A DNA stretch of 64,000 nucleotides, from positions 5,087,001-5,151,000 of the forward strand of contig NZ_CP117709.1 of the NCBI RefSeq assembly GCF_028622875.1, written 5' to 3'. The notes beneath the pieces are model-generated. The model was not told the origin of the DNA. It ran no database searches and saw only the letters and a program-made list of their open reading frames with translations. This DNA comes from Streptomyces sp. MMBL 11-1. GTDB lineage: Bacteria; Actinomycetota; Actinomycetes; Streptomycetales; Streptomycetaceae. The first letter of the stretch is position 1. Each line of letters opens with the position of its first letter. Both the position numbers and the translations under genes were made by a program. Of the stretch, positions 35,456 through 58,162 are shown one piece after another.

Positions 35456-35522
35456 GGTGTGCCTCCCAATTTGAGACGTCTCACCAGGACGCTAGGTCGG
35501 GTCCTTTTCTTGTCGGTAATGG

Positions 35523-41873: not shown

Positions 41874-41896
41874 CGTCGGCCCCTCCATTCCATGCG

Positions 41897-42298: not shown

Positions 42299-42383
42299 GA
42301 AGCCCTCCATCACGCGGGCATGGGGAAACCGCGTAGGTGACGCACCGCGACGACGGACCATCGGTACGTGAGACCGAGTGTGG

Positions 42384-42405
42384 TGCGATTGCACCTGCGG
42401 TTGCA
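42384..42405. promoter_or_regulatory. Operator-like site A (TGCGRYYGCA)x2
   Basis: TGCGATTGCA, CC, TGCGGTTGCA. Lies between the divergent HATPase (starts 42298) and XRE (starts 42501) genes. Same layout as sites at 49146, 49699, 53467 and 54119. Confidence 0.7.
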
Positions 42406-42500
42406 AGCCCTAGGGGCGAAAAACCCCCACACGTGCCCGGAAGTACGCCCTCGCGCTACTCTTCGCGTTGTCTACAAGCCGCGAGAGAAGGGGAAGCACC

Positions 42501-43385
42501 GTGGCGGTCAGTACCGCAGGCATGGTCGCCCGGCAACGATTCGGGGAAGCCCTGAAGAAGGTGCGCCTCGACGCCCGGACCCCGAAGGGCGCACCGATCA
42601 AGCAGATCGACGCCGCCCGAGCAATCAAGCGCAGGACGATCGACCGCGTCAGCCGCTTCGAACGCGGCGCTGCCTGGCCCGAGCCAGCCGAGCTGCAAAC
42701 CCTGCTCAGGCTCTACGATGCGGACATCCCGACCAGCGTCCGGCTGGAGACGATGCTGGAAGCGGGAACGGCCATCACCGAGACCTGGTGGCAAGGCTTC
42801 GAAGACGAATTCCCGGAGAGCCTCATCGAGTTCGTGGCCTACGAGGACAGTGCCCGTGAGATCACTACGTGCACTCCCAACATTCTTCCCGGGCTGCTCC
42901 AGACGCGCGAGTACGGCCGGACGCTCACGCACTACCTGGCGAAGTCGACCGCGAAACCGCAGTCGGTGGACCGTTCCGTTGAACTGCGTGCTCGGCGTCG
43001 GGACATCCTCTTCAAGGACTCACGGCCGACTGTGGAGGTACTCATCGGCGAGGCGGCGCTGCGGCAGAAGGTCGGGGGCCGTGACGTCATGCTCGCCCAG
43101 CTCGACGCACTCCTCGAAGACGCCACGGAGCGAGGCGTGATCTTCCGCGTGATCCCGTTCGAGGCCAACGCCACCCTCACGTACACGTTCCACTTTCTCA
43201 GCTTCGGAGGGACAGAGTCGCCCATCGCTGCTTTCGACGCGATGACGGGTATGACCTTCCGGAAGAGTCTCAAGGAAACTCGGGGGCTGAAGGGCTTCCT
43301 GGACGACTTGCGCGAACTCGCGCTGTCCCCGACAGACTCGTTTGAAAAAATCGAAACGATCAGGAAAGAGCTGTCTCGTGACTGA
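42501..43385 (+). CDS. XRE-DUF5753 transcriptional regulator (WhiJ-like)
   Basis: 294 aa, GTG at 42501 after AAGGGGAAG. An N-terminal helix-turn-helix (about 12-70; RFGEALKKVRLDARTPKG, QIDAARAIKRRTIDRVSRFE) is followed by the DUF5753 ligand domain (TCTPNILPGLLQTREYGRTL, VLIGEAALRQKVGG, FHFLSFGGTESPIA). It belongs to the WhiJ-type regulators that act with a DUF397 partner, here the next gene. It may bind site A or the other copies of this motif; this is untested. Confidence 0.88.
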   Translation: MAVSTAGMVARQRFGEALKKVRLDARTPKGAPIKQIDAARAIKRRTIDRVSRFERGAAWPEPAELQTLLRLYDADIPTSVRLETMLEAGTAITETWWQGFEDEFPESLIEFVAYEDSAREITTCTPNILPGLLQTREYGRTLTHYLAKSTAKPQSVDRSVELRARRRDILFKDSRPTVEVLIGEAALRQKVGGRDVMLAQLDALLEDATERGVIFRVIPFEANATLTYTFHFLSFGGTESPIAAFDAMTGMTFRKSLKETRGLKGFLDDLRELALSPTDSFEKIETIRKELSRD

Positions 43386-43638
43386 CCACACCAACGCCGC
43401 CAAGCTGGACGCACTCAACGCCATGGTGGACAACGCCCCGGCAGACCTCACGTGGAACACCCCGCTGGCCTCCACCAACGGAACCGGTGACTGCCTGGAG
43501 ACCGCCCGGGTCGAGGGCGGATACCTGGTCCGGAACTCCAACATGCCCGGTACCGTCCTTCCGTTCACGGACTCTGAGTGGGCCGCCTTCGCGCAGGCCG
43601 TCCGCGACGGGCAGCCCGGTTTCGCTCCGGGAGCCTGA
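43378..43638 (+). CDS. DUF397 partner protein
   Basis: 86 aa, GTG at 43378, overlapping the XRE stop by 8 bases. The C-terminal half (CLETARVEGGYLVRNSNMPG then LPFTDSEWAAFAQAVRDG) follows DUF397. In WhiJ-like loci such proteins modulate the XRE regulator. A perfect 15-bp terminator follows. Confidence 0.8.
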   Translation: MTDHTNAAKLDALNAMVDNAPADLTWNTPLASTNGTGDCLETARVEGGYLVRNSNMPGTVLPFTDSEWAAFAQAVRDGQPGFAPGA

Positions 43639-43644
43639 TCCATA

Positions 43645-43696
43645 CACGACGAGACCCGCTTTCCCAGGCTCAGTTGGGAGGGCGGGTCTCGTCGTG
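43645..43696 (+). terminator. Terminator after XRE/DUF397 operon
   Basis: CACGACGAGACCCGC and GCGGGTCTCGTCGTG, perfect 15-bp stem 7 bases after the DUF397 stop. Confidence 0.8.
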
Positions 43697-43708
43697 CGCA
43701 ACGTGGGG

Positions 43709-44017
43709 TCAGTACATGGGCGCCATGAAGATGGAGCTGCGCCCCTGGCCCGTGGCCGGTGCCCCGGTCGGTGCGGTGCCGGGGGAGCCGAGGCCGAGCT
43801 GCTGACGCGTAGGGCGCCCCCGGACGGGGGAGGTGCCGGGTTGCGCGCTCAGACGCGGCAGGGTGGCCGCTGAGAGCGCCGACGTGCCGCCTGGATGAGG
43901 GTCGGGCAGTTCCGAAGGCCAGCCGGCGGCGAGCTGGGACCTGGGGCCGCCTGTGGGTGTTCCGGGCAGCACCTGGACCGCGTCCCACGATGGGTTGGGG
44001 CGTCGCAGGAGGGGCAT
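43709..44017 (-). CDS. Hypothetical Pro-rich protein
   Basis: 102 aa, ATG at 44017 eight bases after GAGG. Rich in Pro, Gly, Ser and Arg, without predicted fold. Might be disordered or a false gene. Confidence 0.45.
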   Translation of the reverse strand: MPLLRRPNPSWDAVQVLPGTPTGGPRSQLAAGWPSELPDPHPGGTSALSAATLPRLSAQPGTSPVRGRPTRQQLGLGSPGTAPTGAPATGQGRSSIFMAPMY

Positions 44018-44083
44018 GACGGTCACCTCGATTCGGGACGGAAGTCTTTCAACGGTGCCCGTCCCGAATTCCGGCGGGGTAAT

Positions 44084-44401
44084 TCAGGGGTGGCCGTACT
44101 CGGGCCTCGCGTACGTCATCTTCGGGAGGTCGTGCAGGAGAGCCCGCACGCGCCGGTATTTCACCGTCGTGCTGTGCTGGTCCCAGGGGTAGTTCTCGAC
44201 CACGGGGACGGCTTCGAAAAGCCAGAGGTCGTCGGGGTGGATGTGCCAGGAGAGCTGTCCGGCCGGGGACTCGACGTAGAGGACGGGCCAGCCGGGGGTG
44301 AGCGGGTCGCTGTAGGACAGAACGCCTCCGAACAGTGCCACCATCACGGCCAGGAGGTGGGCGCGCTCGGTGTAGATGTCCGGCTCTTTCGTCTCAGCCA
44401 C
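44084..44401 (-). CDS. WDGH-like small protein
   Basis: 105 aa, GTG at 44401 overlapping the previous stop by 8 bases. YTERAHLLAVMVAL followed by PAGQLSWHIHPDDLWLFEAV and YPWDQHSTTVKYRR resembles a small domain widespread in actinophages that carries a WDGH motif (here WDQH). Biochemical role unknown. Confidence 0.65.
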   Translation of the reverse strand: MAETKEPDIYTERAHLLAVMVALFGGVLSYSDPLTPGWPVLYVESPAGQLSWHIHPDDLWLFEAVPVVENYPWDQHSTTVKYRRVRALLHDLPKMTYARPEYGHP

Positions 44402-44567
44402 AGCGCACCACCACCAAGGAAATGGGCCGCAGCGTGCCGTTCGGGGATGCCTGCCAGCCGAGTCTGACAATCAGCGGGGGTTCCTGCGGGTGGGTGGCCA
44501 GCAGGCCGGCCACCACCGCTGCGATCGGGCCGGCCACCGGTGCGGGGCGGGCCGTGACGTCAGCCAT
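44394..44567 (-). CDS. Hypothetical 57-aa protein
   Basis: ATG at 44567 after GAAAGGA. Contains PVAGPIAAVVAGLLATHPQE. Upstream (44625-44643) is one copy of the GCGNCAC..CGAATGGG motif. No function assigned. Confidence 0.55.
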   Translation of the reverse strand: MADVTARPAPVAGPIAAVVAGLLATHPQEPPLIVRLGWQASPNGTLRPISLVVVRCG

Positions 44568-44642
44568 ATGAGTCCTTTCGGGACGGGGGCTGACGTCATC
44601 CTGCAAGTCCGAGCAATTTCTTTGGTGGCGACACGAATGGGC

Positions 44643-44963
44643 TCAGGCGGAAACCTCCGAGTGGCCCACACCGTCCCGGATTTCTGCGAGAAGGAGAGCG
44701 GCGGTGACTTTCCTTTCCGGCCACTCGGATGGCGGGTTGTACAGGCACAGGTACTGGGCGGTCTCCCGGTCGTATCCGGAGAGGACGAGGCCGGCAGGTG
44801 CTTCGGAACCGGGCTCGGGCCGGATGTAGTTCGCGGACACGAAGCCGAAGCGGTGCAGCTCGTACATGGCCATCTGGAGCTGTTGGTGGGGCACCACGGG
44901 GTTCCGTACGGTCCAGCCGTGCTCCTCGGGTACGAAGGTGCCGGGCAGGCGTAGCGCGTACAT
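44643..44963 (-). CDS. Hypothetical protein
   Basis: 106 aa, ATG at 44963 overlapping the previous stop (TGATG), GAGGAGC upstream. Contains LQMAMYELHRFGFVSANYIR. Not recognised. Confidence 0.65.
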   Translation of the reverse strand: MYALRLPGTFVPEEHGWTVRNPVVPHQQLQMAMYELHRFGFVSANYIRPEPGSEAPAGLVLSGYDRETAQYLCLYNPPSEWPERKVTAALLLAEIRDGVGHSEVSA

Positions 44964-45358
44964 CAGGCACCGCTCCTCGGGGCGAACAACAGGGCCGCCG
45001 CAACGGCGAGCTGGTGCGCCATGCGAGGCCGGCGCAGCTCGTGGACGTGGTTCTCCAGCACGCGGGTCATGGCCTGCACCAGGTCGTCGCGCACGCCCAT
45101 CTGCTGTGCGTCGTAGGTGTACCCCTGGCGGCGGCCGTCTTCGGCGTAGTGCAGGAGCGGCAGGGCGACCGGGGGAGGGGAGCCGACGAATCCGGTGTGG
45201 TCGCACGCTGTGCAGCAGCACGGGCGTCCGGAGTAGGTGTCGACCAGGGGGCATTGGTGGTGGGCGCCGGCTGAGCACGCGGCGGAGAGGAACAGGTACC
45301 GGCTGAGCCTGTGGAGAAGCTCGGCGGCCTGGCGCACGTCGAAGGGGTCAGCCAGCAC
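44963..45358 (-). CDS. Cys/His-rich protein, putative zinc binding
   Basis: 131 aa, GTG at 45358 after AAAGG, overlapping the previous gene by 11 bases. HHQCPLVDTYSGRPCCCTAC contains several Cys/His that may bind zinc. A helical C-terminus (VQAMTRVLENHVHELRRPRM) follows. Unknown function. Confidence 0.6.
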   Translation of the reverse strand: MLADPFDVRQAAELLHRLSRYLFLSAACSAGAHHQCPLVDTYSGRPCCCTACDHTGFVGSPPPVALPLLHYAEDGRRQGYTYDAQQMGVRDDLVQAMTRVLENHVHELRRPRMAHQLAVAAALLFAPRSGA

Positions 45359-45605
45359 GACGGACCTTTCCAGGGGCGGGGGCCAGCGGCGCGGTCCAGC
45401 TTTCGACTTCTTCTCGGCCGGCCTCGGTGATGGTGTAGCGGTCGAAGCGGTCGCGGCGGGCTTTGGCGGTGTGCTGGGCACGGGTGAGAGCGTTGAGGTG
45501 GGCGATAGCGCGACCTGCCGGAATGTTCGTGCCGTCCACCACCTGGAGCAGCGTGGCCTCGCCTTGATCATGGAGCCATCGCAGCACTTGCATTTTTTCG
45601 GTCAT
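45348..45605 (-). CDS. Winged-helix protein
   Basis: 85 aa, ATG at 45605 (GGAG close upstream; ATG 45593 possible). MQVLRWLHDQGEATLLQVVD, NIPAGRAIAHLNALTRAQHT and RYTITEAGREEVES form a short winged helix like PadR/MarR-type proteins. Probably a DNA-binding regulator, first gene of this minus-strand group. Confidence 0.65.
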   Translation of the reverse strand: MTEKMQVLRWLHDQGEATLLQVVDGTNIPAGRAIAHLNALTRAQHTAKARRDRFDRYTITEAGREEVESWTAPLAPAPGKVRRAG

Positions 45606-45802
45606 ACTCCGAGATTTTTCCACCTCGGGCTGCTCCTCGGGGGGACGACACAGCAAGAACCCCCCACTGGGAACAGGCAGTTGGGGGGCTCTCGCTAAGG
45701 AAGAGGCGGTGCATCCGTCACCTCACCGACGAGGCGACAGTGCGCCGCCCGGATGCCCCGTTCCCCTTCCTTGGAGGGAACAACGGGCTGCCGGTGTCAG
45801 AG

Positions 45803-46297
45803 TTACGGATTTTTATTTCCATCACCCGTATGGCAGAACCTATTTCGCACCCGGCCGAGTGCGTGAAGAATCGCTTCTCTCGCGCTCACCTCGCAGTCGT
45901 GCGCGGCCTCGACGGAGTACGCGAGGCACAGCATTCCGGCTACCTCCCGGGTCGCTTTCCGCAGGTGAGGGCGGGCGCGCAGCACGCGGCCCTGCGCCAG
46001 TCGGCGGTATCGGCGACGCCGCAGCAGAGAGGCGGTGAATTCCGGGTCGGTCCGTCGCCGGAAGTCGACCTCCACCCACCCGTCGGCCCATCCGACGCCA
46101 TGCTGGACCGGGATGACCACCGTGTCCATCAGGAACCAGGCGAAGGCTCCGACCGCCTGGGCGATCTGGCGTCTGTCCCGCTCCAGCAGGCGCATGCTCG
46201 CCTTGTCACCCCTTGCCCAGAATTCCATGTACGCGATAGCGAGGAGGCGCATGTCGTCGCCGGGCTGCTTATCCACCATGTGAAGCATGCTAGCCAT
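45803..46297 (-). CDS. Hypothetical protein
   Basis: 164 aa from ATG 46297 (ATG 46288 or 46279 also possible; no clear ribosome site). Contains MEFWARGDKASMRLLERDRR and an Arg-rich C-terminus. Divergent from the plus-strand gene at 46310. Unknown. Confidence 0.5.
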   Translation of the reverse strand: MASMLHMVDKQPGDDMRLLAIAYMEFWARGDKASMRLLERDRRQIAQAVGAFAWFLMDTVVIPVQHGVGWADGWVEVDFRRRTDPEFTASLLRRRRYRRLAQGRVLRARPHLRKATREVAGMLCLAYSVEAAHDCEVSAREAILHALGRVRNRFCHTGDGNKNP

Positions 46298-46309
46298 TAC
46301 GCTCGCGCC

Positions 46310-46666
46310 ATGACTTACGTCCCGGAAACGCGCACCCTGTGTCCACGGTGTGAAATTGAAATGGGCGTCACTCGAATGGAGTACGGCTACTGCGGGCAGT
46401 GCCGCGACTTCCACGCTGCGCAGGCCGACCTCATTGCCGACAAGTACACCCCTCCGCAGATCATGGGCGGTGGCTGCATGCGCTGCTGCGGGCACTCCCT
46501 GCGGGCGTGGGCGGTCTACCACCCAGCTCCCTGGGAGGCCGGCACCGTCGTGCGATGCGTCTTCAGCGAGGACGCTCTGCTGCACGCGATGCGGTACTGC
46601 CCGTGCGGGTTCTGGCACTGGCGAGCCGCCGAGTGCGACGAGCTGCCGAGGGAGCCGGCCCTGTGA
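46310..46666 (+). CDS. Zinc-ribbon protein
   Basis: 118 aa. Two CxxC pairs in TLCPRCEIEM and YCGQCRDFH (about 9-32) form a likely zinc ribbon, and CMRCCGH and YCPCGFWHW add a possible second site. Suggests nucleic-acid or protein binding. Coupled (GTGA) to the next gene. Confidence 0.6.
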   Translation: MTYVPETRTLCPRCEIEMGVTRMEYGYCGQCRDFHAAQADLIADKYTPPQIMGGGCMRCCGHSLRAWAVYHPAPWEAGTVVRCVFSEDALLHAMRYCPCGFWHWRAAECDELPREPAL

Positions 46667-46872
46667 GTGACGCGGAGGCGTGCTGCTGCGTCGTCAGGGC
46701 CCTGGTGGTGATGGCGCCCGATCCCGAGACCGAGCCGGGCCGGTACTTCGTGTGCCGGACGCATGGGCAGATGATCGTGTGGGACGGGCGCCGGTGGCGC
46801 TGGTCGGACCAGGCCGAGGACATCGATCAACTCCCTCCGACGGCGGATGCCGGGAGCCACCGTCCCGTGTGA
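46663..46872 (+). CDS. Hypothetical 69-aa protein
   Basis: GTG at 46663 in GTGA overlap. Contains EPGRYFVCRTHGQMIVWDGR and an acidic C-terminus. Unknown. Followed by a strong terminator. Confidence 0.5.
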   Translation: MSDAEACCCVVRALVVMAPDPETEPGRYFVCRTHGQMIVWDGRRWRWSDQAEDIDQLPPTADAGSHRPV

Positions 46873-46902
46873 AGCTTTTTCCGGACCGGTCGTCCACGCA
46901 GG

Positions 46903-46944
46903 AGTCAGGGCCTCACCCCTCGCGCATGGGGTGAGGCCCTGACT
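46903..46944. terminator. Bidirectional terminator, 17-bp stem
   Basis: AGTCAGGGCCTCACCCC and GGGGTGAGGCCCTGACT, 8-nt loop, TCT after it. Between convergent genes ending at 46872 and 46946. Confidence 0.85.
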
Positions 46945-46945
46945 T

Positions 46946-47281
46946 CTATGACGGGCTGCGATAGCCGTTGGGGAATATCTCCACGGTCAACTCGCCGGAA
47001 TCCTCGTCCTGCTCCCATACCGTCCGGCAAGGAAACACCTCGTCCCGGCCCGTGATCTCCCGCGCACGGTCCTCGACCGTTTCTGCCCACGGAAACAGTT
47101 TCGCCGGAAGGCGCCAGGTGCCTCGCTCACACTCGATCCAGGCGATCCGCGTCTCCGGATCGCTGAAAAGGGCCAGCACTTCCAACTGCTGCCCGTTGCG
47201 GCGAACCTGGAACTGCGGAAGCCCCCGGACCTCGTTCAACAGGCGTGTGCGGATCGTACCTTCGTAGGTCAGATGAGCCAC
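46946..47281 (-). CDS. Hypothetical protein
   Basis: 111 aa, GTG at 47281 with GAGGGAG. Contains LPQFQVRRNGQQLEVLALFS and IAWIECERGTWRLPAKLFPW. Beta-rich; no family recognised. Confidence 0.6.
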   Translation of the reverse strand: MAHLTYEGTIRTRLLNEVRGLPQFQVRRNGQQLEVLALFSDPETRIAWIECERGTWRLPAKLFPWAETVEDRAREITGRDEVFPCRTVWEQDEDSGELTVEIFPNGYRSPS

Positions 47282-47350
47282 CGGGGCTCCCTCTCGCGTA
47301 TCGGACAGGTCGAGGTCCCGCGCGATCGGCGCGGCCGGCGCCGCACCCTG

Positions 47351-47758
47351 CTACGCGGCCACACGGGCACGTCCGGACGCGAATTCCTCCACGGCCTCCC
47401 CGTGACCGGCCTTGGCCTCGGCCGGCAGCCCGTACGTCCACAGAGTCCCCAGCAAGTGCCCGGGGTCGTCGGCCGCGTACAGCGCCGAGCCGAAGACCTG
47501 CGGGACGTAGTCGGCCGGCAACTCGCTCGCAACGCACGTGGCCAGCAGGTCGTCGAAAACCAGGCAGATGGTTCGCACGACGGCCGGCCTGCCGTTGGGC
47601 AGCACGACGTCAGTCTTGTGGACCGTCCGGGCGTTCATGTCCTCGAACAGTTCCGCAGCGGCCCTCGTGGTGAGCGGCTCGGCATCCAAGCCGAACGCGA
47701 AGGGGCGGCCCGCCGGCCCCATGTCGATCCTGTCCAGAAGGTCGTCGGTCTGCTTCAC
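47351..47758 (-). CDS. Hypothetical protein
   Basis: 135 aa, GTG at 47758 after GGAAAGGAAACG. Contains TVHKTDVVLPNGRPAVVRTI and LAADDPGHLLG-like segment. Unknown; upstream gap (47759-48110, about 350 bp) holds an imperfect inverted repeat and motif copies. Confidence 0.6.
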   Translation of the reverse strand: MKQTDDLLDRIDMGPAGRPFAFGLDAEPLTTRAAAELFEDMNARTVHKTDVVLPNGRPAVVRTICLVFDDLLATCVASELPADYVPQVFGSALYAADDPGHLLGTLWTYGLPAEAKAGHGEAVEEFASGRARVAA

Positions 47759-47866
47759 ACCGTTTCCTTTCCCCCAGTACGACGGAAGGCCCGGCGTAGC
47801 CGATGAAGAGGACGATTCCCAGGGGGGTGGTATCGCGCCGGCGGCTACGCCGGACCGTTCTAGGGC

Positions 47867-47930
47867 GCGTGCCCAGCGGGATTCCGGTAAACGGGGGGGT
47901 GTCTACCGAAACCCCGCCGCGTGGGCACGC
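47867..47930. repeat. Long imperfect inverted repeat in a 350-bp gap
   Basis: GCGTGCCC ... CGGTA and TACCG ... GGGCACGC form two nested arms (outer 8 bp, inner 5 bp) with partial pairing between. May be a terminator or an RNA element. The rest of 47759-48110 holds two CGAATGGG motifs and no gene I can support. Confidence 0.45.
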
Positions 47931-48110
47931 ACCAACATCAACCCACACCGGCGGGGATGAGTCACGCCACTTCCGTGAAGTTTTTATTGCGTCACTCGAA
48001 TGGGTGACCCCTGGTTACGCTCCGCGCAGGCTCCCGCCGGTGGCGATGTCCAAGATGCACCGAATGGGTAGCCACATCGTGGGAGAACATCAGCAACACC
48101 CCACCACCAG

Positions 48111-48518
48111 TCACGACTTGAGGGCGCCCAGCAGCCGCCGCCGGGTGCCGGCCGGCAGCTCCCGCAACCACCCCATCGCCTCCCACTCCCGCACCTCACA
48201 AACGGATTTCAGCCCGTAATGCCGAACCAAATAGCGCGCAATGCGGTGCCCGTGAATGTCGTGCCCGAGCAAGCCCGCCACCTCGTAGCCGCACGGCTCC
48301 GGGTACGGGCACTCCGACGTCGGCGCCGTGTCCGTCACGCACGCCGGGCACAGGTCGACCATCTCCCCGTCGACCCGCAATCCCTGCCAGCCGTCCGCCC
48401 GCGACGCGCGCATCGCCGCCGCCCGGGTCGCACCTGCCCACCGTCCAGACGTCGCACAGCGATGCCCGCCGCAGGCCACCTCCAGCACGGCCTGCGCCCG
48501 CCCGGTACGCCCCTCCAC
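48111..48518 (-). CDS. Hypothetical Cys-containing protein
   Basis: About 135 aa from GTG 48518 (start uncertain). Cys/His groups in ACGGHRCATSG, VDLCPACVTD and SECPYPEPCGY may bind zinc. C-terminus is helical (ARYLVRHYGLKSVCEVREWE). Function unknown. Confidence 0.5.
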   Translation of the reverse strand: MEGRTGRAQAVLEVACGGHRCATSGRWAGATRAAAMRASRADGWQGLRVDGEMVDLCPACVTDTAPTSECPYPEPCGYEVAGLLGHDIHGHRIARYLVRHYGLKSVCEVREWEAMGWLRELPAGTRRRLLGALKS

Positions 48519-48604
48519 CCTCGACCCCTTCCCCAGTTCCTCGACAACACAAGGGCCCCGCACCCAGCCATCGGCTGGCTACGGGGCCCACCCCACGGTC
48601 GGAT

Positions 48605-48877
48605 TCACCCAACGCCGAGCGAACGCCCCTCGACCCAGTCGCAGCGGTTCCTGCCGGCCCACGACGGCGCCCACGGGTACACCCGGTTCTTCGCGTCCTT
48701 GAACCAGATCCCGGGCTCGGTCTCAGCCTCCGTCCCATCAGGCAACTGCACCTTCACAGCCCCCCAGAAGACGTACTTTCCCGGCTGGGTCCACTCCAAG
48801 GAACTGACCTCCAGGCCGGGCACGGCCATCAAGCGCGCCTCGGCCTCCGGCCACGACATCCCCTCTTCGCTACTCAT
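48605..48877 (-). CDS. Hypothetical protein
   Basis: 90 aa, ATG at 48877 after GAGGACG. Contains LEVSSLEWTQPGKYVFWGAV. Overlaps the upstream gene by 8 bases. Unknown. Confidence 0.6.
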   Translation of the reverse strand: MSSEEGMSWPEAEARLMAVPGLEVSSLEWTQPGKYVFWGAVKVQLPDGTEAETEPGIWFKDAKNRVYPWAPSWAGRNRCDWVEGRSLGVG

Positions 48878-49109
48878 CGTCCTCATCCCCTCGATTCGGC
48901 TGGTGCTCCGGCTTCGGGCACAGCCACAAGCCAGCCCAATTCCTCTGTAGAGCCGTATTCGGATGCACGGAGCAGTGCTGCGTGTCCACAAGCTCGTAGC
49001 GCTGCTCACTACGAGCCGCGTCCGCCAACAACTCCTGAAAAAGCGTCGCCACGACCCCTCCGCCCTCCGCGACAGGCGCGGCATCAAGAACCAGCTCCAC
49101 CGGCCACAA
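48870..49109 (-). CDS. Hypothetical protein downstream of operator-like site B
   Basis: 79 aa from GTG 49109 (GTG 49100 possible). Contains AEGGGVVATLFQELLADAAR. C-terminus Asp/Glu-rich. Double motif at 49146-49167 lies about 40 bases upstream, consistent with control of this operon. Confidence 0.5.
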   Translation of the reverse strand: MWPVELVLDAAPVAEGGGVVATLFQELLADAARSEQRYELVDTQHCSVHPNTALQRNWAGLWLCPKPEHQPNRGDEDDE

Positions 49110-49145
49110 CCAGGCCGCTGGGCACCACGAGGGAACGCTACGCCC

Positions 49146-49167
49146 TGCGACCGCACTTGCGACCGCA
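49146..49167. promoter_or_regulatory. Operator-like site B
   Basis: TGCGACCGCA, CT, TGCGACCGCA: two identical 10-bp units at 12-bp phasing, upstream of the minus-strand gene starting at 49109. Confidence 0.7.
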
Positions 49168-49244
49168 GATCAACCGAACCGGCATATGCCCAACGCCACG
49201 GCCCAGTCTCGGAATCGGCTCCCCTTCCGGACCCGGCCCTCAAG

Positions 49245-49769
49245 CTAGGTCACCCCAGCGACAGCTCTAATCCCTCGAACGGGTGAACAGGCCAAGGTAA
49301 CGAGCAGATTCACGCCGAGCCACCCCCGATCCAGAAGCGCGACCGCGAACCCCGCCCCCACCAGCACTGACGTGAGTGCCGCCATCCGCTCTATCCGGTG
49401 CTCCGCAGCCTCCAGCGGCTCTCCGGGCGAGTGCGGGCCATCCCCGTGCCGAAACTCCGCCGGGAGGAAGTACCACAGCTCCACGCACACCCCGGCACCC
49501 CGAGGCCAGTCCACCTCGTGCACGGCGCGAACGCCCACCCACTCCGACTCGATAGACGCCGACGACCCCGCCACGGCGTTCCCGCACACCCAGCCCTCCC
49601 CGCCCAGAAAACCGCTCACGCGGTCCACGGACGCACACATGGCCTCGGACCATGGGTCAGTCCGCTCGGTCAGAGGGAAGTCCTCCACTGCTGCGATCTG
49701 CGATTGCAGGTGCGATTGCATCATGAGGCCAAGGATGACGTAACCACCAGCCCCAGCAGACCCGTTCAC
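49245..49769 (-). CDS. Hypothetical protein with C-terminal hydrophobic segment
   Basis: 174 aa from GTG 49769; ATG 49724 or 49721 possible. Contains GAGVCVELWYFLPAEFRHGD and a hydrophobic segment (MAALTSVLVGAGFAVALLDR) that may be a membrane helix. Operator-like site C overlaps its 5' end. Unknown function. Confidence 0.5.
   Translation of the reverse strand: MNGSAGAGGYVILGLMMQSHLQSQIAAVEDFPLTERTDPWSEAMCASVDRVSGFLGGEGWVCGNAVAGSSASIESEWVGVRAVHEVDWPRGAGVCVELWYFLPAEFRHGDGPHSPGEPLEAAEHRIERMAALTSVLVGAGFAVALLDRGWLGVNLLVTLACSPVRGIRAVAGVT
49699..49720. promoter_or_regulatory. Operator-like site C
   Basis: TGCGATTGCA, GG, TGCGATTGCA, with a partial third unit just upstream (CTGCGATC). If the downstream gene starts at 49724 or 49721 the site overlaps the first codons; this tells against the shorter start or means repression at initiation. 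Confidence 0.65.
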
Positions 49770-49920
49770 CCCCAGAAGCGACCCGCGTCACACTGCGGCG
49801 GACGCACCCTCACCGTCGCTGGAAACACCCGAACGCCGAACCCGAATATCAAATCGCGACACACGAATGGGCTAAAGGGGATTTGCGTGACACTACGGAT
49901 GCTTCATAACGTCCAGCCCC

Positions 49921-50694
49921 ATGACGACGCGCCTCAGCCAGGTAGTCGCAGTGGAAAAGCCGATCAAGACCGACGCCTACAACGTGCTCAGCCAGGCGCA
50001 CCACCAGGTCCAGAAAGCCCCACTGCTCACCGGTCTCTCCCGCACCTACCGCCCCCGCGACGACGAAGGCGAGCAGCAGCCCGCCGAAGCGACCCGCGTG
50101 CAGCTCCGAGCAGTGGACGCCATCGCCGAGGTAAAGGCAGTCCTCCTCCGCTTCTACGACGTCACCGCCACCCGCGACTGGGCCAACTGCGAGGCCCGAG
50201 CCGACATCAAGGTGAACGGCGAAACCCTGCTACGCGACGTCCCGGTGCCCTACCTGCTTTTCCTCGAAAAGCAGCTCACCAACCTCGCCACCTTCGTCGA
50301 GAAACTGCCCGTCCTCGACCCGGCCGAAGAGTGGCTCTGGGACCAGGACCGAGCCGTCTGGCGCACCGCGCCATATGAGAGCGTCAAGACGAAGAAGGTC
50401 CCCCGCAACCACGTCCTGGCCGAAGCCACGGCGCAGCACAAGGCACAAGTCGAGATGTACTACGAGGACGTACCCGTAGGCACCTGGACGACCGTGAAAT
50501 TCTCCGGAGCCATGCCCGCCGCCCAGGTGAAGGCCCTCTCTGTACGGGTCCAGGCCCTCCGCGACGCGGTGAAATACGCTCGTGAGGAAGCCAACGGAAC
50601 CGAAATCCAGCAGCAGCGCATCGCCGCGCCCCTCCTGGACTACCTCTTCGGCACGTTCACCCCGCTGGCCTCCGAACAGGCCGTCGCCGCGTAA
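49921..50694 (+). CDS. Conserved-looking 257-aa protein directly upstream of the tRNA-like RNA
   Basis: 257 aa, ATG at 49921. All-soluble alpha/beta protein; KTKKVPRNHVLAEATAQHKA and DVPVGTWTTVKFSGAMPAAQ look well conserved in composition. Basic residues (TKKVPRN) could contact RNA. No named domain recognised. Only 52 bases separate its stop from the first tRNA-like hairpin and no U-rich terminator intervenes, so protein and RNA may share a transcript and form one system. This link is inference from adjacency. Confidence 0.75.
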   Translation: MTTRLSQVVAVEKPIKTDAYNVLSQAHHQVQKAPLLTGLSRTYRPRDDEGEQQPAEATRVQLRAVDAIAEVKAVLLRFYDVTATRDWANCEARADIKVNGETLLRDVPVPYLLFLEKQLTNLATFVEKLPVLDPAEEWLWDQDRAVWRTAPYESVKTKKVPRNHVLAEATAQHKAQVEMYYEDVPVGTWTTVKFSGAMPAAQVKALSVRVQALRDAVKYAREEANGTEIQQQRIAAPLLDYLFGTFTPLASEQAVAA

Positions 50695-50704
50695 TCCCCA
50701 GACT

Positions 50705-50726
50705 CCCGCCGCCGGTGTGCGGCGGG
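50705..50726 (+). terminator. 8-bp GC hairpin after the 257-aa gene
   Basis: CCCGCCGC, 6-nt loop, GCGGCGGG. It lacks a U-run and could be a terminator or the first element of the following structured RNA. Confidence 0.5.
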
Positions 50727-50770
50727 TGCGCAGGAGCGCAATCTGAAGCTCAGGACTGAAGTTCAGCATC

Positions 50771-50853
50771 CGGGTCAGGTCACAGCGGAGGTTCGAATCC
50801 TTCTCCCGGCACCACACGCCGGGGTAGCCCAGCGGTAGAGGCAAGCCAACCCG
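50771..50853 (+). tRNA. Permuted tRNA-like module 1
   Basis: In order: CGGGT (50771-50775, anticodon-stem 3' strand), an 11-nt variable segment, T-arm GGAGG-TTCGAAT-CCTTC (50787-50803), acceptor 3' strand TCCCGGC (50804-50810), ACCA, CAC, acceptor 5' strand GCCGGGG (50818-50824), TA, D-arm GCC...AGCGGTAGA...GGC (50827-50842), and ACCCG (50849-50853) pairing with CGGGT. Acceptor strands pair over all 7 positions (one G-U), across the 7-nt loop ACCACAC. Anticodon loop cannot be assigned; the variable segment and the D-to-anticodon linker are longer than normal, so it may be a tRNA mimic rather than a decoding tRNA. Confidence 0.65.
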
Positions 50854-50920
50854 TATCTAAAGTTCTCGCTCCTAGTTTCAACACACCACCAAGCGCCGGA
50901 TCGACCGGCCCGAGCCACAT

Positions 50921-50989
50921 CACCGAGTGGGGGTTCAATTCCCTCCCCGGGCGCTCCGTGCCTGGGTTGTCTAATGGCAGGACGCGGTG
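50921..50989 (+). tRNA. Permuted tRNA-like module 2
   Basis: In order: CACCG (50921-50925), AGT, T-arm GGGGG-TTCAATT-CCCTC (50929-50945), acceptor 3' strand CCCGGGC (50946-50952), 7-nt loop GCTCCGT, acceptor 5' strand GCCTGGG (50960-50966), TT, D-arm GTCT-AATGGCA-GGAC (50969-50983), G, and CGGTG (50985-50989) pairing with CACCG. All 7 acceptor pairs form (one U-G). D-arm is tRNA-Glu/Gln-like with G18-G19; the bases after CGGTG read ACCTCAA, which in Glu register would give anticodon CTC but with C33 instead of U33. No encoded CCA. Confidence 0.65.
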
Positions 50990-51086
50990 ACCTCAATACG
51001 ACTCGGAGCCTTAAATGTGCCGGCGTGAGCTGAAGGGTGGAAAACCCTACCAAGGGCTCGTCTTATGGAACGAGTAACCTCCCCCA

Positions 51087-51117
51087 GGGGGTCGGGACTG
51101 GCTACGTCCCGGCCCCC
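51087..51117. terminator. Bidirectional terminator between tRNA-like RNA and adenosine deaminase
   Basis: GGGGGTCGGGAC and GTCCCGGCCCCC, 12-bp stem with one U-G, loop TGGCTAC. Ends both the plus-strand RNA and the minus-strand gene (stop 51131). Confidence 0.75.
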
Positions 51118-51130
51118 GCCAGCATGTCAA

Positions 51131-52252
51131 TCACCGCTCAGCGAAAAGCCATTCAGCCCGAAGCGCCGCGTACCCCGGCTTGACGACCTCATTGATCATC
51201 GCGAGCCGCTCATCGAACGGGATGAAGGCAGACTTCAAAGCGTTCACCGAGAACCACTCAAAATCCGACAGCGTGTATCCGAATGCCTCGGTCAGCAGCT
51301 CGAATTCCCGGCTCATGCTCGTCCCGCTCATGAGGCGGTTGTCCGTGTTCACGGTGACGCGGAAATGCAGCTTCCGCAGGAGCCCGATCGGGTGCTCCGC
51401 GTACGAGGTGGCGGCGCCGGTCTGGAGGTTGGACGTCGGGCACATCTCCAGCGGGATGCGCTTGTCCCGCACATAGGAGGCGAGGCGGCCGAGGGAGACC
51501 GAGCCGTCCTCGGCGACCTCGATGTCGTCGATGATCCGCACCCCGTGGCCGAGCCGGTCGGCGCCGCACCACTGGAGGGCCTGCCAGATCGACGGCAGGC
51601 CGAACGCCTCGCCCGCGTGGATGGTGAAGTGGTTGTTCTCCCGCTTGAGGTACTCGAACGCGTCGAGGTGGCGGGTGGGAGGGAAGCCCGCCTCGGCGCC
51701 CGCGATGTCGAAGCCGACGACGCCCTGGTCCCGGTAGCTGTTGGCCAGCTCGGCGATCTCCAGGGCGCGGGCGGCGTGCCGCATCGCGGTGAGGAGGGCG
51801 CCGACGCGGATGCGGTGGCCGTTGGCGCGGGCGATGCGCTCGCCCTCGCGGAATCCCGCGTTGACGGCCTCGACGACCTCTTCGAGGGTGAGGCCGCCCT
51901 CCAGGTGCTGCTCGGGGGCGTAGCGGATCTCGGCGTAGACGACACCGTCCTCGGCGAGGTCCTCGGCGCACTCGGCGGCCACCCGGAACAGCGCGTCACG
52001 GGTCTGCATGACGGCGCAGGTGTGGGCGAAGGTCTCCAGATACCGGGGCAGCGAGCCGGAGTCGGCGGCCTCGCGGAACCAGACGCCGAGCTTGTCGGGC
52101 TCGGTCTCGGGGAGGGAGTCGTAACCCTGCGCGCGGGCCAGCTCGACGATGGTGCCCGGCCGCAGGCCGCCGTCGAGGTGGTCGTGGAGCAGCACCTTGG
52201 GGGCGCGCCGGATCTGGTCCAGGGTGGGCGAAATGAGTGTCTGGCTCGTCAT
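51131..52252 (-). CDS. add: Adenosine deaminase
   Basis: 373 aa. Zinc and catalytic residues: HDHLDGG (His23, His25), HAGEA (His212, Glu215), GHGVRI (His236) and NTDN (Asp304). The sequence is of the housekeeping actinobacterial type and its third-position GC is visibly higher than in phage neighbours, suggesting a host-derived gene. It converts adenosine or deoxyadenosine to inosine. In a mobile-element setting it may feed nucleotide metabolism or lower adenosine-derived signals, which is speculation. Confidence 0.92.
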
Positions 52253-52347
52253 CTGCGCACCCTAGCGCCTACGCGCGTAGAAGTGTAGCTTCGCCCGCCA
52301 CGCAGAAACCGGTGCCGAGAGCTGTCGACCCCCGGCACCGGCAACCA

Positions 52348-53388
52348 TCAAACAGCGAAGCGCGCGGCCAACTCCCACGGCTCCAGCGGATCGAACAGCC
52401 GGCCCAGGCCCTCCGCATACTCGTACCGCGACACCAGCACCTCCACCAGCTCGTGATCGGAAAGGCCGGCCATCGAGATGACGTTCACCTCCACCACCGC
52501 CTGCACCGTCCACGGGTCCATGTAGAAACGGTCGATCCGCTGATCCCCGCCCTGCCCGACCGTCTCACGCCCGGCCGTGGCGCGGAGTGCGTCGGACCGA
52601 CCGAGCCGATGCGCAGCGAACCGCGCAGGGTCCCACATACCCGCATCCAGCATCAGGCTGTCGAGGTAGTCGCACGACCTCCACGACCCATCCGCCTGCT
52701 GACGGGCACGGTGCCGGCGGTGTACCCGGTCCGTGATCTCCGGGTGTGCCCAGTCGATCGGCGGCACGCTCTCTCCCGCAGGCACCGGGTACTCGTTGCA
52801 GTCCCCAGCCCCGAGAAAGGCCGACCAGGAACGCTGGGGGTCGGCGCCCCATTTCGCCTGCACCTTGTCGACCAGATGCGACAACTCATCTGCCTCGGCT
52901 TCCCGACCCGCTGGCGAGCAGAAGGAGTTGTGCCAGGCCACCGTTTCGATCTCAGTGCGCGGTCCGCCGCGCAGCCGGAGCTTCACGCTTGTCGGCGGAG
53001 TACGCCACACAGCGAGCTGGTCGCGCCGCGACAACACCTCGAAGGTGGACTCACGCACAAACATCCCGGTCGGGTTGTTGCCCTGGGCGGCGGGGGACCG
53101 GAATCCCCGCATGCCGAGCACCCGCTGAGCATCATGGAAGCGCCGGTCCGCCGCAGCCCGGCCCGCCGTCGCAGCGGCCTTTTCCTCCTCGGACGCCTCC
53201 AGGGGGGCCGGGGCCGGCTGGGAGTACGTCATCTCAGCACGCCCCAGCCAGTCGAACTGGCGGGATGCCAGCAGGTCGTGCGCCTCCCGCCATCGTGCCG
53301 GGGCGACGCCCGGACTCTCGTCGGGGCCCCCATCCACCTCCAGATTCAGGAACCCGAACCGCAAGATGTCGTCACTATGTGAACTCAC
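52348..53388 (-). CDS. Endonuclease/exonuclease/phosphatase-like protein
   Basis: 346 aa, GTG at 53388 with GAGGGGAGC. FGFLNLEVDGG near the start, VAWHNSFCSPAGREAEADEL (about 150-170), AGDCNEYPVPAG (about 194-205) and the C-terminal DQRIDRFYMDPW follow the EEP order (N...E, H...N, GDxN, SDH-like). The final SDH His motif reads SDHELVEV (about 305-312). It may cut DNA, RNA or phosphoesters. Operator-like site D lies about 80 bases upstream. Confidence 0.7.
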   Translation of the reverse strand: MSSHSDDILRFGFLNLEVDGGPDESPGVAPARWREAHDLLASRQFDWLGRAEMTYSQPAPAPLEASEEEKAAATAGRAAADRRFHDAQRVLGMRGFRSPAAQGNNPTGMFVRESTFEVLSRRDQLAVWRTPPTSVKLRLRGGPRTEIETVAWHNSFCSPAGREAEADELSHLVDKVQAKWGADPQRSWSAFLGAGDCNEYPVPAGESVPPIDWAHPEITDRVHRRHRARQQADGSWRSCDYLDSLMLDAGMWDPARFAAHRLGRSDALRATAGRETVGQGGDQRIDRFYMDPWTVQAVVEVNVISMAGLSDHELVEVLVSRYEYAEGLGRLFDPLEPWELAARFAV

Positions 53389-53466
53389 GTCGCTCCCCTC
53401 GGTTACTTACGAGCGGGACCGTGACCGACGGCGATGAACAATCGATAAACGCCCTGCGTACACAAC

Positions 53467-53488
53467 TGCGGTCGCACTTGCGACCGCA
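53467..53488. promoter_or_regulatory. Operator-like site D
   Basis: TGCGGTCGCA, CT, TGCGACCGCA, then GT and a partial third unit TGCGAG: 12-bp phasing kept. Upstream of the EEP-like gene. Confidence 0.7.
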
Positions 53489-53529
53489 GTTGCGAGTCAC
53501 CCCGGCGGACCCACGGAGGCAGGCAGACG

Positions 53530-54090
53530 TCAGTAGCCGAGCTGCTTCAACCGCTTCAGACAGTTCCCCAGGTGTTTCCGCGCCTCGCGAAGGCGGGGTT
53601 CGGCATCCAGGACGGCAGCTCGCACCACCACGGGGGTACCAAACTCCTCGGTCTCGCTGTTCACCGTGGCTGGAATCCGCATGAGCTGAAGCGCGGCATC
53701 CACCAGGGACCACACGGCCTTGCCCGCCATGTCGCCCACCTTGTCTGCCCCGGTGACGAGAAGGGAGACCTCGACGCCCGCCCGGTTCAGACGACTCCCG
53801 GCGAGCGTCAGTCGCAGATAGAGGTTCCGCCGCGCGTAGTCCTCGGGGTCGCTCGCACCATCGAGCGTCCGCGTGTCGAGCGCCATCCCGTAACCGACAG
53901 CCTCCTCGGCCTCCTCGATCGGATTACCGACCAGCCCATGCACCTCTGCTTCGACGATCAGGCGCAGCATCCCCAACATCTCGGCTCGCGTTGCCGGCCG
54001 AGCCGAGTTTGGAGCTGGATTCCAGCCCAGGGCGTCCAAGGCGGCGCCGAGTCGCTCTACAGGGATCGGGGGGCGCTCTGTTGAAGTCAT
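53530..54090 (-). CDS. Hypothetical helical protein
   Basis: 186 aa, ATG at 54090. Contains MLRLIVEAEVHGLVGNPIEE and repeated Arg/Leu-rich helices. Unknown. Divergent from the gene at 54157; operator-like site E lies between. Confidence 0.65.
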   Translation of the reverse strand: MTSTERPPIPVERLGAALDALGWNPAPNSARPATRAEMLGMLRLIVEAEVHGLVGNPIEEAEEAVGYGMALDTRTLDGASDPEDYARRNLYLRLTLAGSRLNRAGVEVSLLVTGADKVGDMAGKAVWSLVDAALQLMRIPATVNSETEEFGTPVVVRAAVLDAEPRLREARKHLGNCLKRLKQLGY

Positions 54091-54118
54091 GCCGGAATCC
54101 TACGGGTGCTATCGCAAC

Positions 54119-54140
54119 TGCGAGCGCAAGTGCGGTTGCA
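54119..54140. promoter_or_regulatory. Operator-like site E
   Basis: TGCGAGCGCA, AG, TGCGGTTGCA, with a degenerate third unit (TATCGCA) 12 bases before. Between divergent genes 53530-54090 and 54157-54534. Confidence 0.7.
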
Positions 54141-54156
54141 CCACTAGGCTGCGCGC

Positions 54157-54534
54157 ATGACTCAACCGACGCTGGACATAGACGCGTTACTCACCGAATA
54201 CGGGGCGGCCTGGCGCCGGGCCCATCCCCAGTTGACCTCCGAAGAGGAGGAGTTGCGCTCGCAGCGGTGCTGGGACCGCATCCTCACGGAGTTCAACGCC
54301 GAGCTGGACACCAACAACACCACGGCCTGCTCACACTGCCACCGCCAGCGCCCCAGGCGGTTCTTCTGCGAGCCGCGTTTCTACCCGATGAACGAGTGTG
54401 CCAACGTCCGCCAGCCGTGGCATTACCGCCGCGTGTGGGGAAACCCCAAGGCCGACAGGCGAGAGATGCGCCGCCACCGCCGTCGCGTGCGCAAGGGCCG
54501 GGCACCCCGAGTGCCTCGTGGGGGTGTCTCATGA
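54157..54534 (+). CDS. Hypothetical protein with Cys pairs and basic tail
   Basis: 125 aa, ATG at 54157. ACSHCHRQRPRRFFCEP (about 58-74) may bind zinc; the C-terminus is strongly Arg-rich, suggesting nucleic-acid contact. Coupled to the next gene (ATGA). Confidence 0.6.
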   Translation: MTQPTLDIDALLTEYGAAWRRAHPQLTSEEEELRSQRCWDRILTEFNAELDTNNTTACSHCHRQRPRRFFCEPRFYPMNECANVRQPWHYRRVWGNPKADRREMRRHRRRVRKGRAPRVPRGGVS

Positions 54535-55775: not shown

Positions 55776-56950
55776 TTTGCTAGAGTCGCGAGCCCCGAGC
55801 CCACGGCCACTGCCGCCGGCCGTGACACTGCCTGTTGGTCTAGGGTCGATATTTGCAAGACGGACCAGGGGGCCCGGCTGTCCGTTTCGCCCGTTTAATG
55901 GTGGGGGGTCCATTTTGCAGGGATACGTCACCTATTTGTCCGTTTCCACGGGTTCGGGCGACTTCGTAGGGCTTAGGAGCGATTGTGGCACGTGCCCCGA
56001 TACAGGGCAAAGGCCCCCCATGTCGGCTAGGCCACGCTTGCCCGCACATGCCCGTTCTTACGCACGGTAGTTCCAGCTACCATGCGTAATACTGAACCCA
56101 GCGTGAGTGATCGCGTACGGCCGGTGACGCAAGCGGAAGTGCAGTTCCGCTTTGCTCAGCAAATACGGACGTAAGGCAATTCACGCTTATAGCGGGGCGT
56201 AGGCATGTAGAGCATGACAAGAGTGAGGTACTGCCTAAACAAGGCATTCCTGTGTATAAGTTGCACCCCTGGCATACGCCCCAGAGAGGGGCAAGGGGTA
56301 GTTACCCCCTCATGGCCCCGCACACTCCACCTAAGCCGCGTAAGCGCATGAGCTGCGCATGAGCCCTACCTCGGGGCAAGCACGGTATACCTCGCCTCTC
56401 TCCCATACGTAGAGATAGAGGGCAGACGCCCCAGGCCCCCCGAATTTTTGCTCCCTGGCATTTTCTGGGGCGTGTCCGTCATGCCCTCTTTGTGGGGGCG
56501 GGCCGCTGTGCGCCGTTCTGCCGTGCCGTCCGCCCCGGGGGGACCGTCGGGCGCGCGCGCCGAGACAGGCTCTTACGCGGGCAGGCAGCGCGACGCACGG
56601 GCCCGGTACGGCCGGGCGGTACGGCCGGAGCTATGCCGCGCGGACCCGTGGCCGGACGCGTGAGCGGCCCGGGGGGACTGGCCGGAGCGACGGACCCCCG
56701 GGGGAGGGGAGGGCCGCAGGAAGGCGTACAGGGACGCGGACACGTAGCGTCATTCTTTCCCGAATTTCGGCGGTTTTCGCCACTCTCCGTGATTTAGGCA
56801 GTCGCGGACGCCGCTTGCGCGCACACCTGACGACGCGTCAGGAAATAGGCAAAAGTGCAGGTCAGGGGCCCTTTTTGGGGATGTCGTGATAATCATGCGC
56901 GCTTGTGATTTTTGGGCCTCGTTTGTCCCTTTATCTCCCTTCATGCCGTA

Positions 56951-56967
56951 CCTAGTAAGGAACTAGG
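56951..56967. promoter_or_regulatory. CTAGG palindrome 1
   Basis: CCTAGT, AAGGA, ACTAGG: 6-bp arms, 5-nt spacer. Confidence 0.5.
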
Positions 56968-57748
56968 CGGTATCACATGCCTTGTCATTCTTTTAGCGGG
57001 CGAATCGGGCTGCCCGGGTGTCTCAGCATTTGAGATTCTCCCTAGGTTTTCAAGATTCTTTAGGTCAATTCACCCCGACTGACCTGCATAAATACTGTGC
57101 GTGCTCACTTGACTACAGGAAAGGGGTACACAGGCCCTCCCTGTACCCGTAACGTCTTCCTTGTCACCACGACAGCCCGCCACTCCGGCGGACGCGGGGG
57201 GCGCGAAAGGAAGGTGATTAGCGCGGAGGGAAATTCCCTCCCTTTGCTCTTGGGCACCCGTGCGCTTAGCGGGTGTGACGCCGGTCCTAACCCGGTTCCT
57301 GGCACTCGTGGGGGTATTTCCTCCCCGCGCGTGACCGTGGCTAAGTCCCTCGTTTCTTAGGGGACATCATTTAAGCCTTTACGGTCTCGGTTGCCATTCT
57401 CCCGTCCCATCGTGGCGCGGCCTGCGCAAGGCCAAAAGCAGAGCACACATTTCTGCGGGCGTGTCACTTCTGGACGGCCGTTTCGTCAGTCGCGTACCAA
57501 CGCTGTGAAGCGTGGATGCCCGACCACGGATCGGTAAAGCCCTGTGATGGGGCCGGAGCGTGAGCGGCGTTTTCTGGACACGAAAGGTAGTTGTGTAGGG
57601 ACGTAGTGTCTCACCGGTGATTCCATCGCGCGGTTTACCGTGCTCATGAACTTTCGGAATCACGAGACATTACAACGGAATCTTGAGCTGTGCGCGGATA
57701 CGTGCAACAGCAGGGGGACCGGTAACACGGGACGACAGAACCGAACCG

Positions 57749-57763
57749 CTAGGGATGTCCTAG
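57749..57763. promoter_or_regulatory. CTAGG palindrome 2
   Basis: CTAGG, GATGT, CCTAG: 5-bp arms, 5-nt spacer. Confidence 0.5.
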
Positions 57764-58093
57764 TAGGCGGCTGGTTACGGCAGAACTCGGCAGGGGCAAA
57801 GCTAGGGCCCCCCGGATGACGTCAATGCCCGTTGAACCATGCTGCGGATACTCGCCGCATGGGTGAATGGCGGCTCGAAAGGGCCAATAGTGCCGGACAC
57901 CCCCCGAATTGAACCGCTACCGCGTAGGCACCCCCCTTGGCAGGGGGAGAGTGTCACACGTGCTCGGATTCCCTCCCCCAAATGACCGGCCGTGGATGCG
58001 GGGTCATGGGTGGATGCCATGAGCGACACAAACCCAAAGAGGAAATGGGACGCGTAAATATAGCTCTGACGCCCGGAACATTGGGTGATCTGA

Positions 58094-58110
58094 CTAGGTG
58101 CGAGACCTAG
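58094..58110. promoter_or_regulatory. CTAGG palindrome 3, upstream of early operon
   Basis: CTAGGT, GCGAG, ACCTAG: 6-bp arms, 5-nt spacer, 52 bases before the ATG of the first gene. Candidate repressor operator for the plus-strand operon. Confidence 0.55.
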
Positions 58111-58162
58111 GACGCGTACACATCTGACAACGGCTGAACCTCACAGGAAAGGAAAAGACGAC

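Follow-up and report, generated by a model that had tools for sequence, protein, structure and literature searches.

Paired permuted tRNA-like modules in an RNA linked to DUF7873 genes, with likeness to bacterial Y RNAs

According to an excerpt of PMC8394870, and likewise one of PMC4726728, the bacterial Y RNA YrlA, whose structure includes a tRNA-like domain, acts as a tether between Rsr and PNPase and serves DusA and TruB as a substrate. In YrlA (RF02553), a permuted module of T-arm, acceptor hairpin, and D-arm sits on a stem, and a protein gene adjoins the RNA. Permuted tRNA genes of algae and archaea also place the 3′ half first, with a loop at the acceptor end joining the halves, and the loops of permuted pre-tRNAs are thought to be removed by RNase P and RNase Z (PMC3978253, in excerpt). 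The permuted two-piece tmRNA has its tRNA-like end in permuted order as well (excerpts of PMC3978253 and PMC10085705). The RNA described here shares its permuted module with these systems, and with YrlA it shares the stem, the adjoining protein gene, and, as far as the excerpts go, the occurrence in phages. It differs from YrlA in its partner, which is DUF7873 rather than Ro60/Rsr (TROVE, PF05731) and is encoded upstream of the RNA. Unlike permuted tRNA genes, it has no anticodon loop, its anticodon-like stem opens into a larger RNA, and there are two modules per RNA; unlike tmRNA, it has two tRNA-like ends instead of one. Searching the open PMC literature for 'DUF7873' gave 0 papers, and no account of the RNA was found there, while a description elsewhere is possible; the excerpts of PMC7159879 and PMC7824862 do not mention it.

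The locus occupies positions 49921..51117 of the window, by which we mean the whole 64-kb stretch of DNA analysed, and consists of a DUF7873 gene and a structured RNA. The gene (49921..50694, plus strand) encodes a protein of 257 aa that matches Pfam family PF25283 with an E value of 2.3e-100 (335.7 bits, against a gathering score of 27). Between its stop codon and the RNA core lies a GC-rich hairpin (50705..50726, plus strand; CCCGCCGC / GCGGCGGG), read from the sequence and a single-sequence fold, which is kept in many relatives and absent from some. The core is formed by two consecutive domains on the plus strand. Domain A (50733..50872), outlined by RNAalifold on 32 relatives, the module pairs, and the motif test described below, is closed by a helix of GGAGCG (50733-50738) with CGCTCC (50867-50872) and contains an anticodon-like stem (50771-50775/50849-50853, CGGGT/ACCCG) and permuted tRNA-like module 1 (50787..50842). 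In this module, the T-arm (50787-50803; T-stem 50787-50791/50799-50803) is followed by the acceptor hairpin (50804-50810/50818-50824, with the loop ACCACAC at 50811-50817) and then by the D-arm. Domain B (50893..51028), outlined by the covariance model R1 and pair counts, has a closing helix (50894-50899/51020-51025), a second long-range helix (about 50907-50914/51002-51010), an anticodon-like stem (50921-50925/50985-50989, CACCG/CGGTG), and permuted tRNA-like module 2 (50929..50983). Module 2 again runs from the T-arm (50929-50945; T-stem 50929-50933/50941-50945) through the acceptor hairpin (50946-50952/50960-50966, with the loop GCTCCGT at 50953-50959) to the D-arm. The 3′ part (51029..51117, plus strand), assigned by sequence reading and folding, holds a stem-loop around 51056-51076 and ends in a hairpin (51087-51117), which is GC-rich and terminator-like, has no T-run, and was not picked by a T-run terminator scan. 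Most rows of the relatives' alignment likewise show a GC-rich hairpin at the 3′ end.

A sequence-only reading of this DNA had proposed the order of T-arm, acceptor hairpin, and D-arm with 7/7 acceptor pairs in both modules, together with the two anticodon-like stems, and direct reading of the coordinates agrees on both points. It had also noted that the ordinary order, combining the 5′ half of module 1 with the 3′ half of module 2, fits poorly; this combination has 1 acceptor mismatch and scores 24.8 bits with the Rfam tRNA model, whose threshold is 29. The nested pairings that it took for a common cap belong instead to the consecutive domains, each with a separate closing helix. ARAGORN called 0 tRNA and 0 tmRNA in the window, and the window RNA reached the gathering score of no Rfam 15 family. 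When six relatives were scanned with Rfam, this score was reached by ordinary tRNAs alone.

The surroundings of the locus are phage-like. Contractile-tail phage genes (sheath-like, capsid, portal, and terminase) lie on the minus strand at 20848-37073 of the window; the capsid, portal, and terminase genes, at 30-37 kb, are above their own Pfam cut-offs, and the sheath gene is slightly under its cut-off (29 vs 31.4 bits). The stretches 41,894-54,497 and 55,799-58,781 are ~90% identical to one IMG/VR contig, and the DUF7873 proteins of contig and window share 96% identity. An adenosine deaminase gene comes next, on the other strand. A second DUF7873 gene in the same genome (locus L001) likewise has the RNA behind it. 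The mobile-element setting that had been proposed stands as far as the surroundings go, but the RNA is not restricted to Streptomyces mobile elements, with loci in other taxa and in chromosomes. ARAGORN called a false tRNA-Phe (L001, minus strand 1460-1374) that covers the 5′ part of the RNA at this second gene, and the record of Klebsiella phage LPKP23 annotates a tRNA-Stop inside the RNA (L171, 3507-3590), where two permuted modules can be seen by eye. Both calls are explained by an RNA with permuted modules.

The fold of the single sequence was modestly unusual (z of -1.99, with 1 of 100 shuffles equally low), so folding alone proves nothing and the proof has to be carried by comparison with relatives. 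RNAalifold on 36 sequences gave 56 pairs, of which 46 showed double-sided change. For domain B, 38 pairs, with the anticodon-like stem added, were tested in 31 sequences selected for perfect acceptors: 94.5% of cells were paired, compared to 73.2% in shuffles, and the covariation score was 0.643, compared to 0.232. Compensatory changes in the paired strands, which the sequence-only reading had asked for, were strong, with 240 double-sided changes vs 70.3 (sd 7.3) in shuffles, none of 500 shuffles equalling the observed number. When the partners were slid by 1-3 columns, pairing dropped to 39-44%. The shuffle control covers domain B; in domain A, the GGAGCG/CGCUCC helix was paired in 18-30 of 30-32 rows per position in the RNAalifold analysis. 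The TTC and A of the T-loop and the GG of the D-loop were among the invariant columns, which, at the level of sequence, matches an intact tRNA elbow as expected.

A selection-free test of the acceptors located the modules by T-loop and D-arm motifs alone, dropping 71 of 173 records without strict motifs. In the remaining 102 records, many of them close relatives and the counts thus not independent, 7/7 acceptors formed in cis in 98 for module 1 and in 97 for module 2. The window's own module 2 was scored as a miss, the script having anchored on the wrong D-arm. Exchanging the partners between records reduced the 7/7 acceptors to 18% (module 1) and 5% (module 2). Anticodon-like stems of at least 5 pairs were found in 86% and 81% of cases in cis vs 48% and 43% when swapped. 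Decay from ordinary-order tRNAs had been set as the case that would speak against permutation, and the ordinary order fails, giving 7/7 acceptors in 1/102 records.

To follow the RNA among relatives, we compared two sets of 80 loci, the best-ranking ones among at least 455 from genomes and among 177 from viruses. A descriptor (T-arm, acceptor hairpin of 6 or 7 pairs, and D-arm, at most 900 nt from the gene) found two modules in 121 of these 160 loci, one in 37, and none in 2. The covariance model of domain B, R1, was built on 31 sequences and scored 113.5 bits at domain B of the window, which is itself a building sequence. Across 121 Streptomyces genomes, DUF7873 was present in 59, with 60 genes in total, and R1 gave 60 full-length matches of at least 55 bits, the next best scoring 53.1 bits. 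Each DUF7873 gene had one of these matches 145-350 nt downstream on its own strand, which accounts for all 60. The proposed tie to the protein family thus held for 60/60 genes in this set, and the R1 scores of DUF7873-linked RNAs (55-140 bits) were separated from those elsewhere (53 or less).

Counted by source, R1 reached at least 55 bits in 87/88 genome-side and 67/86 viral and phage sources, numbers that include copies (for example, L109/L168, L142/L173, and L127/L129/L130) and the 31 building sequences, the window being L002. The sole miss on the genome side is L022, where module 1 is present but has a long loop and module 2 stops after the T-arm and the acceptor 3′ strand. Among the 19 viral misses, nine still match at 44-54 bits, modules can be recognized by eye in two more (L102 and L171), and the descriptor finds two modules each in L125 and L136 and one in L172; the locus of L122 runs off the end of its contig. 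In L118, of which L119 is a copy, and in L163 and L164, neither R1 nor the descriptor detected a module. A DUF7873 gene lacking the RNA, which had been named as an argument against a partnership, was therefore rare (0/60 in the genus and, with L118 and L119 both counted, 4/86 among viral and phage loci).

The sequence-only reading had suspected an entirely new kind of RNA. This went too far, as Y RNAs have such a tRNA-like domain (PMC8394870, in excerpt) and rsr-type loci carry two modules. Three such loci (L181, L182, and L183), tentatively assigned to rsr because a TROVE match lies some 1 kb further along, have two permuted modules each, 226-236 nt apart and all below the Rfam YrlA threshold; 4/6 of these modules have 7/7 acceptors and the other two score 5 by script. 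In contrast, the domains of the DUF7873 RNA are about 145 nt apart, and its conserved core motifs are absent from all three rsr-type loci. Two matches were also seen in 11/23 contigs with TROVE-linked YrlA matches. With the Rfam YrlA model, the window RNA scored 16.8 and 16.2 bits and the RNA of L141 39.6 bits, against a gathering score of 69, a harsh threshold in Streptomyces that was reached in 0/41 genomes, rsr-linked RNAs included. Homology to YrlA by way of this model was considered and dropped, since its scores fail to separate linked from unlinked rows: of 83 rows listed in 41 genomes, 34 near TROVE scored 29-58 bits, 10 near DUF7873 27-39 bits, and the remaining 39, near neither, 31-45 bits. 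Partial R1 matches (model range 39 to 95-101) lay 1117-1177 nt from a TROVE match in 11/11 cases among the matches listed, and other ordinary-looking matches scored as high.

The rows near neither gene are probably tandem tRNAs, and decayed or tandem ordinary tRNA genes might imitate a permuted order at DUF7873 loci too. We find this explanation hardly credible, given that acceptors pair within the permuted modules in nearly all records of the motif test and in the ordinary order in a single one, and that R1 separates the linked RNAs from everything else.

A search of the window's genome for TROVE, the Ro60 family, gave no match, and TROVE was absent from 33/38 hand-picked DUF7873 carrier records, some of them fragments. 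TROVE matches, mostly about 60/442 positions long, occurred in 67 of the 121 Streptomyces genomes, 36 with and 31 without DUF7873, so that the two families are distributed independently (Fisher p 0.27).

We consider the locus to be a two-part RNP cassette, composed of DUF7873 and a ~330-nt non-coding RNA that would serve as a Y-RNA-like scaffold, with DUF7873 replacing Ro60, and put the probability of this reading at about 0.5. The RNA is made of two consecutive Y-RNA-like domains, each a stem capped by the circularly permuted upper half of a tRNA. Each head comprises the T-arm, the acceptor stem as a hairpin, and the D-arm, retaining the elbow residues and missing the anticodon loop. If expressed, the RNA would act in trans, its stem and linker parts would be bound by DUF7873, and its heads may serve as docking sites for enzymes that recognize the elbow and acceptor of tRNA, as described for YrlA in the excerpts cited above. 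The particle would then work like the Ro60–Y RNA particle, with DUF7873 standing in for Ro60, and might have a role in RNA quality control or phage–host conflict. With the elbow and a 12-bp T-acceptor helix kept, the anticodon loop missing, and two heads beside one protein, such a scaffold is, by analogy, the simplest reading. It is supported by the covariation, the 60/60 linkage, the spread of R1 matches, the arrangement at L141 (see below), the architecture of rsr loci, the YrlA precedent, the lack of a TROVE match in the genome, and the independence of DUF7873 and TROVE. It is weakened by the protein's lack of a fold match and its non-basic pI, by the loss of module 1 in some loci, by the RNA-less loci L118/L119, L163, and L164, and by the failure of the Rfam YrlA model to separate DUF7873 RNAs from unlinked rows. 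In short, the data are best read as a pair of permuted tRNA mimics in one RNA that is linked to DUF7873 and belongs to the bacterial Y-RNA kind, with a new partner and core.

Of 7343 candidate proteins, 5573 are homologues of DUF7873 with an E value of 1e-3 or better. In 65 diverse homologues, the residues L5, G38, N89, A92, L112, E116, P130, H173, Q176, G187, R221, and N225 were invariant. The structure model predicts long helices and a long beta hairpin (152-191), and a fold search with it found no known match at E 0.001 or better. The proteins are not basic, with a median pI of about 6.3. PADLOC gave no match for the cassette. We compared the ORFs of six reference loci with all 160 loci, excluding the neighbours of L001 as queries. 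ORFs that recurred in at least 12 loci overlapped either DUF7873 or the beginning of the RNA, with the exception of an ABC-transporter-like ORF (by eye) of L008, which was found in 12 loci. A MoxR/vWA system, suggested by SWIM-like and MoxR-like ATPase genes (by eye) flanking the second DUF7873 gene, was dropped, as the ORFs of the six reference loci revealed no such recurring neighbour.

A small protein, an adjoining structured RNA, and a patchy spread are also what one would see if the RNA were an antitoxin or regulator of DUF7873, as in type III toxin-antitoxin pairs. We regard this as quite improbable: the RNA is large, conserved in its core sequence, and located downstream of the gene, and DUF7873 has no toxin-like family match. 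Moreover, gene and RNA are on opposite strands at L141, where the complete RNA lies about 1.2 kb from the DUF7873 gene and hence is not merely an mRNA 3′ end.

The 7-nt acceptor loop emphasized by the sequence-only reading is true of the window, but in relatives the loops range from 4 to 607 nt. The longest is an insertion placed exactly in the module 1 loop of L095 (8805-9425), where the stem still pairs 7/7. The inserted stretch holds an ORF of 186 aa in which an HNH-like motif can be seen by eye. In L102, the module 2 loop is enlarged by about 190 nt, as judged by eye. Base 74, following the acceptor, was C in 189/204 modules, and an encoded CCA followed it in 38/102 cases for module 1 and 21/102 for module 2 (59/204 in total, with a chance expectation of 1 in 64). 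The sequence-only reading had suggested that processing at these loops could release split tRNA halves; the data fit a free tip as well as a cut one. If cut, the RNA could be a processed multi-piece tRNA mimic, in which RNase P and 3′ trimming open both acceptor hairpins in the manner of permuted pre-tRNAs and two-piece tmRNA, and the product would be a nicked RNA with two tRNA-like ends, possibly charged or EF-Tu-bound. The bias at base 74, the excess of CCA, the unconstrained loop with its HNH-like ORF, and the presumed cutting of permuted pre-tRNA loops by RNase P and RNase Z argue for processing; yet 145/204 modules have no CCA, and insertions would be equally tolerable in a loop at a free tip. 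On balance, we think processing unlikely, though less so than the other rivals of the scaffold. An extended form seems just as doubtful to us: a new RNP family of DUF7873 and a multi-module mimic, whose acceptor loops would be excised by tRNA maturation enzymes to leave the nicked RNA with two tRNA-like ends, in some phages with a third, ordinary tRNA in the transcript, and which would sense or tune tRNA metabolism during infection.

An ordinary tRNA was found at most 260 nt past domain B in 22/56 viral loci, and 12 of those 22 tRNAs start -12 to 22 nt from the domain B end. In L110, L123, L133, L152, and L101, a tRNA in ordinary order and of varying type starts 11-14 nt past domain B. We take a third slot for a normal tRNA after domain B as a lead only, as the carrier phages are rich in tRNAs anyway.

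The cassette is widely spread. Genome carriers include Actinomadura, Rhodococcus, Kibdelosporangium, Lentzea, Catenulispora, and many Streptomyces, and R1 scored 128.7 bits in an Armatimonadetes assembly (L083) and 80.7 bits in an Anaerolineales assembly (L085). By tblastn, DUF7873 was found in 73/50,697 phage records, with the hosts Vibrio (29), Gordonia (12), Rhizobium (12), Klebsiella (7), Serratia (6), Arthrobacter (3), Pseudanabaena (2), Rhodococcus (1), and Microcoleus (1), and in 4 plasmid records. The RNA was found by R1 in Gordonia and Arthrobacter phages (96, 99, and 75 bits in phages GodonK, Mimi, and Ronaldo, respectively), and by eye or by weak matches in Klebsiella, Vibrio, and Pseudanabaena phages. 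GOLLD is a large RNA of phage tRNA arrays, and some DUF7873 carriers resemble it and other large phage RNAs in their position, the DUF7873 gene lying among tRNA genes in GodonK and Mimi. Unlike GOLLD, the window RNA belongs to no Rfam family at gathering score.

The many carriers that are phages or phage-like contigs, and the position of the gene among tRNA genes in GodonK and Mimi, would suit a tRNA decoy in phage–host conflict, an RNP that sequesters or blocks a host nuclease or enzyme acting on tRNA during infection. Anticodon nucleases usually target the anticodon loop, which the RNA does not have; chromosomes commonly carry the cassette too (59/121 genomes), and PADLOC has no match for it. 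A decoy thus appears rather unlikely to us, slightly more so than a processed mimic.

The DUF7873 family, with its many homologues, is accompanied by an RNA of large size and strong conservation that reaches the threshold of no Rfam 15 family, and DUF7873 thereby gains a testable role as an RNA partner. The cassette also suggests permuted tRNA mimicry apparently independent of Ro60, and its relatives offer a natural RNA series for asking which enzymes are recruited by the elbow and acceptor of tRNA.

A pair of heads is not needed everywhere, since module 1 was replaced or decayed in 13/80 genome loci (the script had flagged 15, of which L031 and L036 were false alarms, and L013 is unclassed). 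In 12 of these 13, a hairpin lengthening the anticodon-like stem replaces module 1, judged by eye, and in L040 the module is degenerate. On both flanks of module 1, relatives show repeats of the types CTGAAACTGAAG and CTCAGACTCTCGCTCCAGACTCAGC (about 50740-50770 and 50855-50880 of the window), which are possibly a protein-binding or alternative-pairing element.
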